From Weissella confusa (GTDB taxonomy: Bacteria; Bacillota; Bacilli; Lactobacillales; Lactobacillaceae), in the NCBI RefSeq assembly GCF_004766315.1, contig NZ_PVSN01000003.1, forward strand, positions 1 through 64,000: 64,000 nt of DNA. Direction: 5' to 3'. The notes beneath the pieces were generated by a model. That model was not told the DNA's origin. It did not search any database and saw only the letters and a list, made by a program, of their open reading frames with translations. The translations under genes and the position numbers were made by a program. This document shows, piece after piece, positions 10,880 through 51,236 of the stretch (position 1 is its first letter; each line of letters begins with the position of its first letter).

Positions 10880-10887
10880 AATCAACA

Positions 10888-11188
10888 TCAACGAAGACGA
10901 GATGTAGTAGCGGTTGAAAAATCTGCAGAGAGCTAGCGTTTGGTGAAAGCTAGTGATTGGCAAATCGTGAAAATGGTCTCTGAGTTAGTGTGTGACTGCG
11001 ATCAGGTTCTGTAAGTGGTTACCGGGTGCGCCCGTTATAGCGCCAACGTATTTCCGGCGGCTGTCGACTAGTCCAGCTTGAAGGCGTACGTGTAAGCTTA
11101 TTCGGGTGACTGAATAAGAAAACTGGGTGGTAACACGAGTCATTTCGTCCCGGGGATTGTGTCATAAGACACGGTCCCCGGGTTTTTG
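10888..11188 (+). ncRNA. T-box leader, probably methionine-specific
   Basis: The conserved T-box AACTGGGTGGTAACACG lies at 11121-11137, followed by CGTCCC and a strong terminator (CCGGGGA…TCCCCGG, then T5) at 11150-11187. Stem I carries GCAGAGAG, GGTGAAAGC and a specifier region GTGAAAATGGTCTC. There ATG at 10973-10975 is the likely specifier codon. Uncharged tRNA-Met would therefore allow read-through into the MetQ-like gene. Met T-boxes on methionine transport genes are known in Lactobacillales. Confidence 0.9.
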
Positions 11189-47517: not shown

Positions 47518-48258
47518 TTAATCTTCAAATTTGAATGCGTTTAGGAAGTGCTTGATACGGTCAGTTGGCTCACTGAAGAACTCAGCTGGTGTACCATCAA
47601 ACACAATTTCACCATCTTCCAAGAACAACATGCGATCGGCTGCTTCACGTGCGAATTCCATGTTGTGTGTCACGATAATCATTGATTGGTCATCCTTTGC
47701 CAAACCATTCAAGACACGCAAAACTTGTGCTTCCAATTCAGGGTCCAAGGCAGAGGTTGGCTCATCAAGCAAAAGATAATCAGGTGACATCGCCAAAGCA
47801 CGGGCGATAGCAACACGTTGCGTTTGACCACCAGATAGTTGGTAAGGGTAACGATCAGCCGTGTTATCCAAATTAACAGCTTGTAGCAACTCGTGCGCCT
47901 TTGCGATTGCCTCGGCCTTGTTTTGCTTCAAGACGTGCACGGGCGCCTCAATAATGTTACCTAAGATTGTTAGGTGATCAAACATACGTGGTTGTTGGAA
48001 AACCATACCAGTCTTGCGACGAACCCAAAGCAACGTCTCAGTTGTGATTGGTTGGCTCAAATCAATCGTACGATCATCCAACGTGTACAAACCTGAATCG
48101 GGGTGCTCTAGCAGGTTAAGTGAGCGAAGCAACGTTGACTTACCTGAACCAGAAGGTCCGACAATAACCGTCGCTTCATGTGGATTGAACGTCACGTTGA
48201 TATCTTTTAGCGCATGGTGTTCAGCGTATTGCTTATCAATGTGTTCTAACTTCAACAT
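47518..48258 (-). CDS. Amino acid ABC transporter ATPase (GlnQ/TcyC-type)
   Basis: This 246-residue polar-amino-acid ATPase has Walker A GPSGSGKSTLLR, Q-loop GMVFQQPRMFDHLTILGN, signature LSGGQTQRVAIA, Walker B YLLLDEPTSALDPE and VTHNMEFA. It is co-transcribed with the permease gene upstream (6-base gap) and belongs to the attenuator-controlled operon. The substrate is probably cystine or another polar amino acid (see leader peptide). Confidence 0.9.
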   Translation of the reverse strand: MLKLEHIDKQYAEHHALKDINVTFNPHEATVIVGPSGSGKSTLLRSLNLLEHPDSGLYTLDDRTIDLSQPITTETLLWVRRKTGMVFQQPRMFDHLTILGNIIEAPVHVLKQNKAEAIAKAHELLQAVNLDNTADRYPYQLSGGQTQRVAIARALAMSPDYLLLDEPTSALDPELEAQVLRVLNGLAKDDQSMIIVTHNMEFAREAADRMLFLEDGEIVFDGTPAEFFSEPTDRIKHFLNAFKFED

Positions 48259-48264
48259 AATTAA

Positions 48265-48966
48265 TTACCCTTGTACCTTTACGAAACGATCAGCCCATCG
48301 TTGGATGTAGCGTTGTGGAATAGACAAAATTGAGACGAATAGTGCGTAAATTGCAGCGACTAGCAAGTACATTTGCAATGGTTCGAAGTTGGCAGCGGCC
48401 AATTGTTGTGAGAGGTAGAACATCTCGACAATCGTGACAACAGATGCCAATGACGTATCCTTAACCAAAGAAATGAATGAGTTTGCCAACGTTGGAATTG
48501 AAATACGAGCAGCTTGTGGCAGGATGATGCGCAAGAAAATTTGTGAATCAGTCATACCAAGCGCTGCACCAGCTTCGCGTTGTGTATCAGGAATTGATGA
48601 AATAGCGGCGCGGATTGCTTCTGAGGCGTATGCGGCCGTGTTCAATGACAATACCCAGATGGCAGCGGCCCATCCAGAAGGAGATAGCCAGCTAATACCC
48701 AGCTTAGGCAATCCATAGAAGACCACGAACAATTGGACCAACATTGGTGTTGAACGGAACAACCAAACGTAGAACCAAAGGATGAACTTCAAAATGCGCC
48801 AACCAATTGACTTGATACCGGTTGCGTGCGGTACGTATGAACGGAGCATCGCAACAATTGCCGCGATGATAACGGCGATGACAAATGAGATAAGTGCTAG
48901 AGGCACAGTGTACTTGATACCCGCCATAATCAATTGTGGGGCATACTTGGCAATAAATTCAAACAT
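48265..48966 (-). CDS. Amino acid ABC transporter permease (His/Glu/Gln/Arg family)
   Basis: This 233-residue membrane protein has the HEQRO-type signature (RSTPMLVQLFVVFYGLP; EAIRAAISSIPDTQREAGAALGMTDSQIFLRIILPQA). It is the first structural gene of a two-gene operon whose leader carries a small peptide and an attenuator. AAAGGGA lies upstream. No binding protein is in the operon; two candidates lie on the other strand. Confidence 0.9.
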   Translation of the reverse strand: MFEFIAKYAPQLIMAGIKYTVPLALISFVIAVIIAAIVAMLRSYVPHATGIKSIGWRILKFILWFYVWLFRSTPMLVQLFVVFYGLPKLGISWLSPSGWAAAIWVLSLNTAAYASEAIRAAISSIPDTQREAGAALGMTDSQIFLRIILPQAARISIPTLANSFISLVKDTSLASVVTIVEMFYLSQQLAAANFEPLQMYLLVAAIYALFVSILSIPQRYIQRWADRFVKVQG

Positions 48967-48993: not shown

Positions 48994-49050
48994 AAAAAAG
49001 AGCGCGCCGACAGTTTCTGTGTGACACAGGAAAGGCCTAGCGCGCTCTTC
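48994..49050 (-). terminator. Attenuator terminator of the amino acid transporter operon
   Basis: In transcript sense GAAGAGCGCGC … GGCGCGCTCTTTTTT, enclosing a smaller hairpin (CTGTGTCACACAG). It lies between the leader peptide and the permease start. The 5' arm continues as CGCGCTAGGC, which can instead pair with GCCTAGCGCG inside the leader peptide coding region (plus-strand positions 49102-49111). Antiterminator and terminator are therefore mutually exclusive. Confidence 0.8.
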
Positions 49051-49088
49051 TTAACGGTTCATCGGAATGATAAGTTCACCAAAACGAC

Positions 49089-49151
49089 CTACCGCGAGTA
49101 ACGCGCTAGGCTGATGCAAGCAACATTAATTTGTGTGTTGATCGTCATCAT
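49089..49151 (-). CDS. Leader peptide of the amino acid transporter operon
   Basis: This is a 20-residue peptide, MMTINTQINVACISLARYSR, with a good upstream GGAAGGAAAG and stop TAG at 49089-49091. Codons 12-19 (Cys-Ile-Ser-Leu-Ala-Arg-Tyr-Ser) overlap the segment that can pair with the attenuator. Ribosome stalling there, for example at the single Cys codon, would decide termination. Classical leader peptides contain the amino acid they sense; here Cys, Arg or Tyr are candidates. It is too short for standard gene finders. Confidence 0.7.
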   Translation of the reverse strand: MMTINTQINVACISLARYSR

Positions 49152-49197
49152 GGTTAACTTTCCTTCCGTCTTTTTTAATTAGTCTTTGTTGTGTTTC

Positions 49198-49226
49198 ATT
49201 TTAGAGACATCACTGACTAAATGCAA
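49198..49226 (-). promoter_or_regulatory. Promoter of the attenuated operon
   Basis: On the minus strand TTGCAT (49226-49221), a 17-base spacer and TAAAAT (49203-49198). The leader peptide starts about 45 bases downstream. Confidence 0.6.
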
Positions 49227-49346: not shown

Positions 49347-50163
49347 ATGCAAAAGCACAGCTTTAACGGGATTAAGCTAGTCGCAGCGGTATTTGCCGCA
49401 GGAACATTGTTGAGCGCCGGGGTGTGTAACCGCTAATGCGGATTCTACTAAGAACCTCGGCCTCCTTCACAAGGATCAACTGACTGTTGGTTTGGAAGGT
49501 ACGTATGCACCATATTCATACCGTACTGATTCAGGTAAGCTAACGGGAATTGATGTGGATATGGCCAAGGAAATTGGTAAGAAGATGGGAGTTAAGGTCG
49601 CCTTCGTACCAACAAAGTGGGATTCACTGGTTGCAGGTCTACAAGACCACAAATACGATATCATTTTGAATGATATGGGTGTGACGCCAGCACGTATGAA
49701 GGTGTTCCGTTATGGTTCGGAATACATTTATACTGGGGGAGTTGTCGTTACGAAGAAGGATTCAGGTATCAAGCAAGTTACTGATATCAAGGGCAAGAAG
49801 ACTGCTCAATCAGCAATTGGTAACTATGTGAAGTACGCCGAGAAGCTAGGATCTACAAATGTTGCTGTACCAGGATTTGCTGAAGCGATTGCCACGGTTG
49901 AAAACGGGCATGCAGACGCAACTTTGAATGATGCAGTAGCCTGGGGAGTTTACAAGAAGGCGCACCCTGATACGGATTTGATTGCCATCCCTTCACCATC
50001 AAAGTACATGCCTGCAACTGGGGCTGCACCTATGATGAACAAGAAGTCTGTTGCCCTTGATAAGGCAGTTACGAAGGCTGAGCACGAGCTTCGTAAGGAA
50101 GGCATGATGAAGAAGATTTCAGAAAAGTATTTGGATGCTGATTACAGTAATCCAATTAAGTAA
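49347..50163 (+). pseudogene. Amino acid ABC transporter substrate-binding protein, frameshifted in the signal peptide
   Basis: ATG 49347 opens a signal peptide (MQKHSFNGIKLVAAVFAAGTLLSAGV), but an extra base near 49421-49426 (GGGGTGTGTAACC) leads to TAA at 49434. The other frame continues as VTANADSTKNLG and LTVGLEGTYAPYSYRTDSGKLTGIDVDMAKEIGKKMGV to 50163, a full SBP_bac_3 protein. It is a close relative of the intact protein at 50436. Expected joined length is about 271 residues. As read, no secreted product would form. Confidence 0.85.
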
Positions 50164-50435: not shown

Positions 50436-51236
50436 ATGAACAAGATTATGAAGACGTCTGTTGCATTGGTTGCAGCAGGTATGATTGGCGGTGTTGTCGC
50501 ATCAGCAACGACTGTTTCAGCAGCATCATACAAGAGTGAATTGAAGACTAAGGGTAAGTTGACCGTTGGTTTGGAAGGAACATACGCACCATTCTCATAC
50601 CGTAGCGATTCAGGTAAGTTAACTGGATTTGAAGTTGAGTTGGTTAAGGCTGTTGCTAAGAAGATGAAGTTGAAGCCAGTGTTTGTTCAAACAAAGTTCG
50701 ACTCATTGGTAGCCGGTTTGGATGCTAAGAAGTACGATGTTGTGTTTAACAACATGTCAATCACGCCAGAACGTAAGAAGGCTTACGCATTTGCGCAAGA
50801 ATACTTGTTCACTGAGTCAGTAATGATCACGAAGAAGGGTTCAAAGATTAAGGATTACAGCGATTTGAAGGGTAAGAAGGCGGCACAAACGTCATCATCT
50901 GACTTCGGTCAAGTTGCTACTAAGGCTGGGGCAACGATTGTGTCAGCACCTGGTTTTGCGGAAGCGTTGGACTTGGTTGATTCAGGTAAGGCTGACGTGA
51001 CGTTGAACTCACAAGATTCATGGGGCGTTTACAAGAAGGCCCACCCAAAGACGGATTTGCAAGCTAAGGTAACGAAGGCTTTGGGTGAGACGACTGCTGC
51101 ACCTATGCTTGATAAGAAGGATAAGAAGTTGGCCGCTGCAATTACAAAGGCAGAAAAGTCTTTGCAAAAGGATGGCACAATGAAGAAGTTGTCAGAGAAG
51201 TACTTCGGTTCTGATTTGACCACTGAGAAGAAGTAA
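50436..51236 (+). CDS. Amino acid ABC transporter substrate-binding protein (SBP_bac_3)
   Basis: This 266-residue exported protein has a signal peptide at residues 1-31 ending near ASATTVSAASY with no lipobox Cys. The binding domain has GKLTVGLEGTYAPFSYRSDSGKLTGFEVELVKAVAKK, FVQTKFDSLVAGLDAKKYDVVFNNM and APGFAEALDLVDSGKADVTLN. It is probably the working partner of the permease and ATPase at 47.5-49 kb, since the neighbouring paralogue is frameshifted. A terminator follows. Confidence 0.9.
   Translation: MNKIMKTSVALVAAGMIGGVVASATTVSAASYKSELKTKGKLTVGLEGTYAPFSYRSDSGKLTGFEVELVKAVAKKMKLKPVFVQTKFDSLVAGLDAKKYDVVFNNMSITPERKKAYAFAQEYLFTESVMITKKGSKIKDYSDLKGKKAAQTSSSDFGQVATKAGATIVSAPGFAEALDLVDSGKADVTLNSQDSWGVYKKAHPKTDLQAKVTKALGETTAAPMLDKKDKKLAAAITKAEKSLQKDGTMKKLSEKYFGSDLTTEKK

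Follow-up and report, generated by a model that had tools for sequence, protein, structure and literature searches.

A predicted cysteine-sensing transcription attenuator ahead of a cystine-type ABC transporter operon in Weissella confusa

Layout of the locus

The locus lies within a 64,000-nt stretch of Weissella confusa DNA, here called the window. A promoter-like site, a short leader ORF and an intrinsic terminator lie on the minus strand, as do the downstream genes for the permease and ATP-binding subunit of an amino acid ABC transporter; genes for two cystine-type substrate-binding proteins lie on the plus strand (Table 1). A preliminary description of this DNA had proposed a full attenuation design, composed of a promoter, a 20-codon ORF with a ribosome binding site, a 10-bp complementarity between that ORF and the terminator 5′ arm, and a strong terminator ahead of the permease. 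All of these parts were found, although the −35 element is weak (3 of 6 consensus positions; spacing to the −10 element, 17). By eye, several related leaders show a comparable promoter arrangement. The terminator hairpin has a folding energy of −25.7 kcal/mol (−34.1 kcal/mol for a longer segment), and the terminator ends 27 nt upstream of the permease ATG (48966). A simple consensus scan of the window listed neither the leader promoter nor the leader terminator, because of the weak −35 element and a terminator loop longer than the scan allows. The complementarity is also real: GCCTAGCGCG (49111–49102) pairs perfectly with the terminator 5′ arm over 10 bp, and a match of at least 10 arose in 8 of 2000 dinucleotide shuffles. 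What had been overlooked is a competing hairpin, 1:2, around the stop codon, and the extent of the antiterminator, which covers ∼28 nt rather than 10.

Table 1. Features of the leader and its neighbouring genes in the W. confusa window
Feature	Position	Strand	Basis
ABC ATP-binding subunit, ArtP/TcyN-like, below cut-offs	47518..48258	-	profile match
ABC permease; best NCBIfam equivalog cystine permease (173 bits, cut-off 300)	48265..48966	-	profile match
Intrinsic terminator; U-run 48999-48994	48994..49052	-	sequence, folding energy
Antiterminator 3′ strand (region 3), including the terminator 5′ arm; partner 49111-49084	49034..49065	-	comparison
Conserved GGTCGTTTTGGTG past hairpin 1:2; its first part joins the antiterminator	49077..49089	-	alignments
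Hairpin 1:2 (GCCTAGCGCG / CGCGGTAGGT), overlaps the stop codon	49087..49111	-	93.3% of cells paired, 18 leaders
Leader ORF MMTINTQINVACISLARYSR, 20 codons, stop TAG	49089..49151	-	sequence and comparison
Cys codon TGC, codon 12, proposed control codon	49116..49118	-	alignments, Cys in 36/36 intact leaders
Shine-Dalgarno GGAAGGA of the leader ORF	49161..49167	-	sequence
Promoter-like site TTGCAT - 17 nt - TAAAAT	49198..49226	-	sequence inspection
Divergent cystine-type substrate-binding protein gene, conserved +1 frame break at 49419-49422	49347..50163	+	profile match, comparison
Second cystine-type substrate-binding protein; best NCBIfam cystine binding protein, below cut-off	50436..51236	+	profile match

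Assignment of the operon to cystine transport, also part of that description, agrees with the profile matches, in that the best equivalogs are cystine models, all scoring below their cut-offs. Neither the permease nor the binding proteins reached the equivalog cut-offs for a cystine ABC importer of the TcyABC type; the permease passed only the general domain model TIGR01726, and the best NCBIfam equivalog of the ATPase, an arginine/cystine ATPase, also stayed below its curated cut-off. For the second binding protein the best-matching solved structure is 2yln, which carries only the general name of amino acid ABC binding protein. We take cystine to be the likeliest substrate judging from these models, with methionine possible. 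Cystine may not be the only substrate, because T-boxes upstream of two orthologous operons (L134 and L151, see below) read as Met-specific.

A leader ORF with a conserved Cys codon

From the upstream regions of the permease gene we obtained 23 distinct Weissella leaders. Of these, 22 have the short, Shine-Dalgarno-led ORF expected of an attenuator, starting with ATG, holding the aligned Cys codon and predicted to be translated. The remaining one, from W. viridescens DSM 20410 (L024/L048), has a leader ORF that is out of frame with the Cys codon. The leader of W. viridescens UCO-SMC3 is intact, and the break in DSM 20410 is either a natural loss or a sequence error. Across 20 aligned leaders, no base upstream of the hairpin is invariant except the TG of the Cys codon, whose third base is C or T, as a codon-level constraint predicts.

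We tabulated 36 intact leader peptides from Weissella, Leuconostoc, Fructobacillus, Convivina and two further relatives, omitting the DSM 20410 leader and the near-duplicates L009–L011, L054 and L058; six Cys ORFs from other genera, described below, were listed in addition to these. Cys occurred in all 36, Arg in 26 and Tyr in 22; Cys is the sole residue besides the initiator that all share. Sensing of cysteine, which had been offered together with arginine or tyrosine, is thereby strongly favoured as a prediction. Most leaders have a single Cys codon. Cys is rare in the encoded proteins, at 13 of 13,813 residues in window ORFs of at least 220 codons.

Conservation of the peptide ending CISLARYSR had been named as a sign in favour of the design. 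A C-terminal pattern, CxSLxRxxR, is indeed well conserved in Weissella; of its residues, Cys alone is present in every leader of the other type. The LxR..R part of the Weissella pattern can be explained by RNA pairing, because these residues are encoded within the hairpin.

Hairpin 1:2 and the antiterminator

Hairpin 1:2 (GCCTA-CGCG ... CGCG-TAGG) begins 4 nt past the Cys codon, which places that codon just upstream of the pairing region, as had been noted, and directly before hairpin 1:2, where an attenuator has its control codon. Covariation in the hairpin is slight (1 pair), because it is nearly invariant across the 18 leaders aligned, namely the 20-leader set minus W. thailandensis and W. 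viridescens DSM 20410. The conserved GGTCGTTTTGGTG that follows may be an RNA polymerase pause site, hairpin-dependent by its look. A U-rich stretch directly 3′ of hairpin 1:2 recurs in both of the otherwise different leader types described below.

The antiterminator would form when the hairpin 1:2 strand, together with the post-stop sequence, pairs with the terminator 5′ arm, so that it and the other pairings are mutually exclusive, as in ribosome-mediated attenuators. Its duplex ranked among the best three of 300 base shuffles in 17 of 20 Weissella leaders and was weak against the 300 shuffles in the other three (G020, G002 and G024). In G002 and G024 the leader ORF ends early, within region 1. 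Compensatory double changes were found in 12 of 28 antiterminator columns among 13 of the 20 leaders (near-duplicates and the atypical G020, G002 and G024 left out), such as an exchange between A-U and G-C at position six and, in the post-stop part, C-G/G-C versus U-A/A-U; this count leans towards structure, because the partners were chosen for each species by energy.

Pairing was also compared between and within species, using 14 of the 20 leaders (near-duplicates and G020 left out). On average, a leader's own strands paired at −27.3 kcal/mol, versus −20.2 kcal/mol for cross-species combinations, and none of 20,000 permutations, uncorrected for relatedness, was as good. When the first six nucleotides were removed, as cover by a stalled ribosome, the values were −18.0 and −12.9 kcal/mol, again with 0 of 20,000 permutations as good and relatedness uncorrected. 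A leader's own pair did not exceed the cross-pair mean in MAG64 and G002 for the full strands, nor in W. oryzae (a tie) and W. muntiaci for the masked ones. The orthologue alignment that had been suggested as a check, looking for a conserved ORF and compensatory pairing, thus came out positive in most leaders and failed in G020, G002, G024 and the one frame-broken ORF.

A stricter mask, covering 13 nt from the Cys codon on as a ribosome with Cys at its A site would, was applied to 42 leaders, of which 38 were scored; G020 had no terminator, and L034, L057 and L061 were too short. The remaining antiterminator reached z ≤ −2 in 17 of the 38, and that of the window itself, at −21.9 kcal/mol, had z = −1.0. 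Single-base shuffles were used here, as in the duplex-rank test and in the test of the second leader type below. The antiterminator is therefore available under a stall at the Cys codon, and its strength alone is not above chance in GC-rich leaders like that of the window. A terminator preceded the first gene in 41 of the 42 leaders. The exception, L021 of genome G020, has a conserved leader core, and an AACGC ahead of its U-run could pair with region 2 instead.

Distribution of the leader types

A relative of the permease (E ≤ 1e-60) was found in all 28 Weissella genomes, the best being only 50–56% identical in five of them; W. confusa DSM 20196 has the same permease as the window (100% identity). 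R1, a covariance model for the leader core, gave one strong match in each of 23 of the 28 genomes, before the orthologous permease. With this single strong site per genome, we rejected a spread of the leader to other operons. Among 397 genomes of the family, R1 found no convincing site outside Weissella, the two non-Weissella matches having E values of 0.07 and 0.08.

The five remaining Weissella genomes (L030–L034) have a Shine-Dalgarno-led ORF of different sequence that also contains a Cys codon, and such an ORF was found at all 14 loci (L053–L066) from Leuconostoc, Fructobacillus, Convivina and two further relatives. In this second leader type (19 loci), which sits ahead of the binding-protein gene of the orthologous operon, the ORF has 11–28 codons, with Cys at codon 11 in 14 of 19; start positions were read off the sequences, and the ORF pattern search required Cys. 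A terminator was present in all 17 leaders examined for one, and the long pairing reached z ≤ −2 in 12 of 19. A hairpin directly past the Cys codon is present in most, as is a GGTATTTTGACG-like stretch; both are absent from the Fructobacillus loci L055, L058, L059 and L061, and from L057. The GGTATTTTGACG-like stretch was noted at L053, L054, L056, L060, L062–L066, L030 and L031, and has its counterpart in GGTCGTTTTGGTG of the window.

A model of the Leuconostoc type, R2, matched 13 places in 13 of the 397 genomes at E ≤ 2e-9, the next matches following at 5e-6; it was built on seven sequences, which match by construction if drawn. Seven of the 13 genomes belong to genus g17, five other genomes of which gave weak matches only. 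We treat the many weaker R2 matches as chance.

Orthologous operons in other genera

Among 39 genomes representing other genera, 26 had a permease match at E ≤ 1e-35. The scan for Cys ORFs took in 23 of 28 places, leaving out the five weakest (L157–L161); at L148 and L152 the region runs beyond the locus edge. An upstream ORF with Cys and a Shine-Dalgarno-like site was found at ten of the 23 loci; three belong to the groups already described, six are new, and one (L155) we judged spurious. The new ORFs, selected for Cys and the Shine-Dalgarno-like site without a chance control, carry the Cys patterns CC (L139, L140, L156), CxCxC (L144), CCC (L145) and CPC (L149). An antiterminator was recovered in L144 only; for L139, L140, L145, L149 and L156 we claim a Cys ORF with a terminator and nothing more.

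Three orthologous loci instead have a T-box upstream on the same strand. Those at L134 and L151 score above the gathering threshold and that at L150 below it, with E of 4e-14. T-box specifiers follow a GAA-N-codon convention, which agrees with the T-box that the window itself has upstream of a metQ-like gene. Read this way, the specifiers are AUG in L134 and L151 and UGC in L150, and therefore L150 looks Cys-controlled by its T-box and the other two Met-controlled. The T-box of the window (10885–11155, plus strand, 107.5 bits, AUG specifier, before a gene resembling metQ-type binding-protein genes) is the only one in its 64,000 nt. At the leader itself, the T-box model RF00230 gave no match with E values up to 10.

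Proposed mechanism and alternatives

The leader is very probably a ribosome-mediated transcription attenuator that senses the supply of cysteinyl-tRNA, usually through one Cys codon; its translation, stalling, read-through and response to cysteine we infer from the sequences compared. With enough cysteine, the ribosome would reach the stop codon and cover the hairpin region, or hairpin 1:2 would re-form after its release. The terminator 5′ arm would then be free for its 3′ arm, and transcription would end before the permease gene. If cysteinyl-tRNA were short, the ribosome would stall with the Cys codon in its A site, covering the 5′ arm of hairpin 1:2. Such a stall would free the GGTCG past the stop codon along with the hairpin loop and 3′ arm, and this freed strand would pair with the emerging terminator 5′ arm, allowing transcription of the permease and ATPase genes. 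Besides the leader comparisons, we counted in favour of a cysteine attenuator the transporter models pointing to cystine, the orthologue L150 with its Cys-read T-box, and the rarity of Cys in the long ORFs of the window. Counted against it were the one Cys codon of most leaders, versus the runs in classical attenuators, together with the strict-mask z values, those of the second leader type, the four exceptions in the own-versus-cross pairing, the weak G020, G002 and G024, the frame-broken DSM 20410, the Met-read T-boxes and the slight covariation in hairpin 1:2.

Stalling might have another cause. In an arrest-peptide switch the nascent peptide and a small ligand, such as free cysteine or an antibiotic, would halt the ribosome rather than uncharged tRNA. 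The conserved Weissella C-terminus and the single control codon of most leaders would suit such a switch, but RNA pairing can account for the C-terminal residues, which overlap the hairpin, and only the Cys and the initiator recur in every leader peptide once Leuconostoc, Fructobacillus and the five remaining Weissella are included; we consider this switch improbable. Still less credit goes to an attenuator for arginine or tyrosine, or for a general slow-down of translation. Arg codons do lie near the ORF end in Weissella, and any stall upstream of the hairpin would act similarly. Yet the downstream genes encode a cystine-type amino acid importer, and Arg is missing from 10 and Tyr from 14 of the 36 intact leaders; on this peptide content we rejected sensing of Arg or Tyr, the alternatives named in the preliminary description.

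The strongly conserved RNA core in Weissella and its switchable pairing would also fit an RNA that acts as a riboswitch or binds a protein, with the ORF there incidentally. Against this, no Rfam family matched the leader above its gathering score, which led us to reject a known Rfam riboswitch; the core is not convincingly found outside Weissella, while Shine-Dalgarno-led Cys ORFs are; and the third base of the Cys codon varies between C and T only. We rate such an RNA very improbable, on a par with the Arg, Tyr or slow-down attenuator, and retain the cysteine attenuator.

A frame break in the divergent binding-protein gene

In the divergent substrate-binding protein gene the reading frame shifts by +1 between the signal peptide and the mature protein. 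The break falls at a lipobox-like Cys, at the junction GGGG-TGTGTAA (49419–49436), which is kept in the window, in W. cibaria, in three W. confusa assemblies (L036–L038) and in G006, a genome of the same species. With W. cibaria compared to the window, dN/dS was 0.11 for the mature part, indicating purifying selection there, and 0.20 for the short signal part, on only 7 changes. The kept junction and these ratios suggest a working gene with a programmed +1 frameshift; an old pseudogene or a sequencing error would fit less well. We treat the gene as a candidate for such frameshifting.

Cysteinyl-tRNA could conceivably gate both halves of the transporter. A stall at the leader Cys codon would open the permease and ATPase genes, and reading of the divergent binding-protein gene would depend on a +1 frameshift (GGG G, then TGT) that puts the lipobox Cys codon in the A site, with T-box and leader-peptide control of the operon repeatedly swapped among Lactobacillaceae. 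We regard this combined scheme as speculative and unlikely.

Relation to known systems

Firmicutes sense amino acids mostly by T-boxes, and trp/his-type ribosome-mediated transcription attenuators occur in Proteobacteria. Polycysteine leader ORFs of Mycobacterium and other Actinobacteria are described in PMC1262725 and reportedly also by Canestrari in 2020. The Weissella leader resembles the trp/his-type attenuators, of which PMC9413887 gives a general description, in having a leader ORF with a control codon, amino acid genes downstream, and mutually exclusive 1:2, antiterminator and terminator pairings. It differs in usually having one Cys codon instead of a run of codons, in the stop codon inside hairpin 1:2, and in its place in lactic acid bacteria ahead of a transporter. 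The actinobacterial ORFs likewise place Cys codons before sulfur amino acid genes, but according to PMC1262725 they have Cys runs near the stop without a conserved terminator hairpin, whereas here there are an intrinsic terminator and an antiterminator.

Cys codons and a predicted attenuator with a terminator are also found in uORFC-8-2 before cysS in Rhodobacterales; that leader (PMC8632094) differs from ours in its tandem Cys codons, its α-proteobacterial hosts and its tRNA synthetase gene. Within Firmicutes, His leader peptides are regular leader-peptide attenuators in places of T-boxes, but they concern histidine, have His runs, and occur in Bacillales, Eubacteriales and Erysipelotrichales, according to PMC2965389 and PMC9413887. 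T-boxes, given in PMC1262725 as the main Firmicutes control for tRNA synthetase genes, would share with the leader the sensing of tRNA charging by termination control, and precede some orthologues of the operon; unlike them, the Weissella leader would sense through a translated codon. No earlier report of such a leader in Weissella or its relatives was among the literature matches listed, which in several cases were the best-ranked part of the matches.

If this reading is true, the cysteine logic has been kept, and the sequence has not, across Weissella, Leuconostoc, Fructobacillus and Convivina, which would mean fast turnover of the leader with the sensed amino acid fixed. It would also suggest that a single codon can suffice for an amino acid that proteins contain very rarely. 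The transporter would gain a probable class of substrate, and the leader would offer a simple cysteine sensor in food bacteria.
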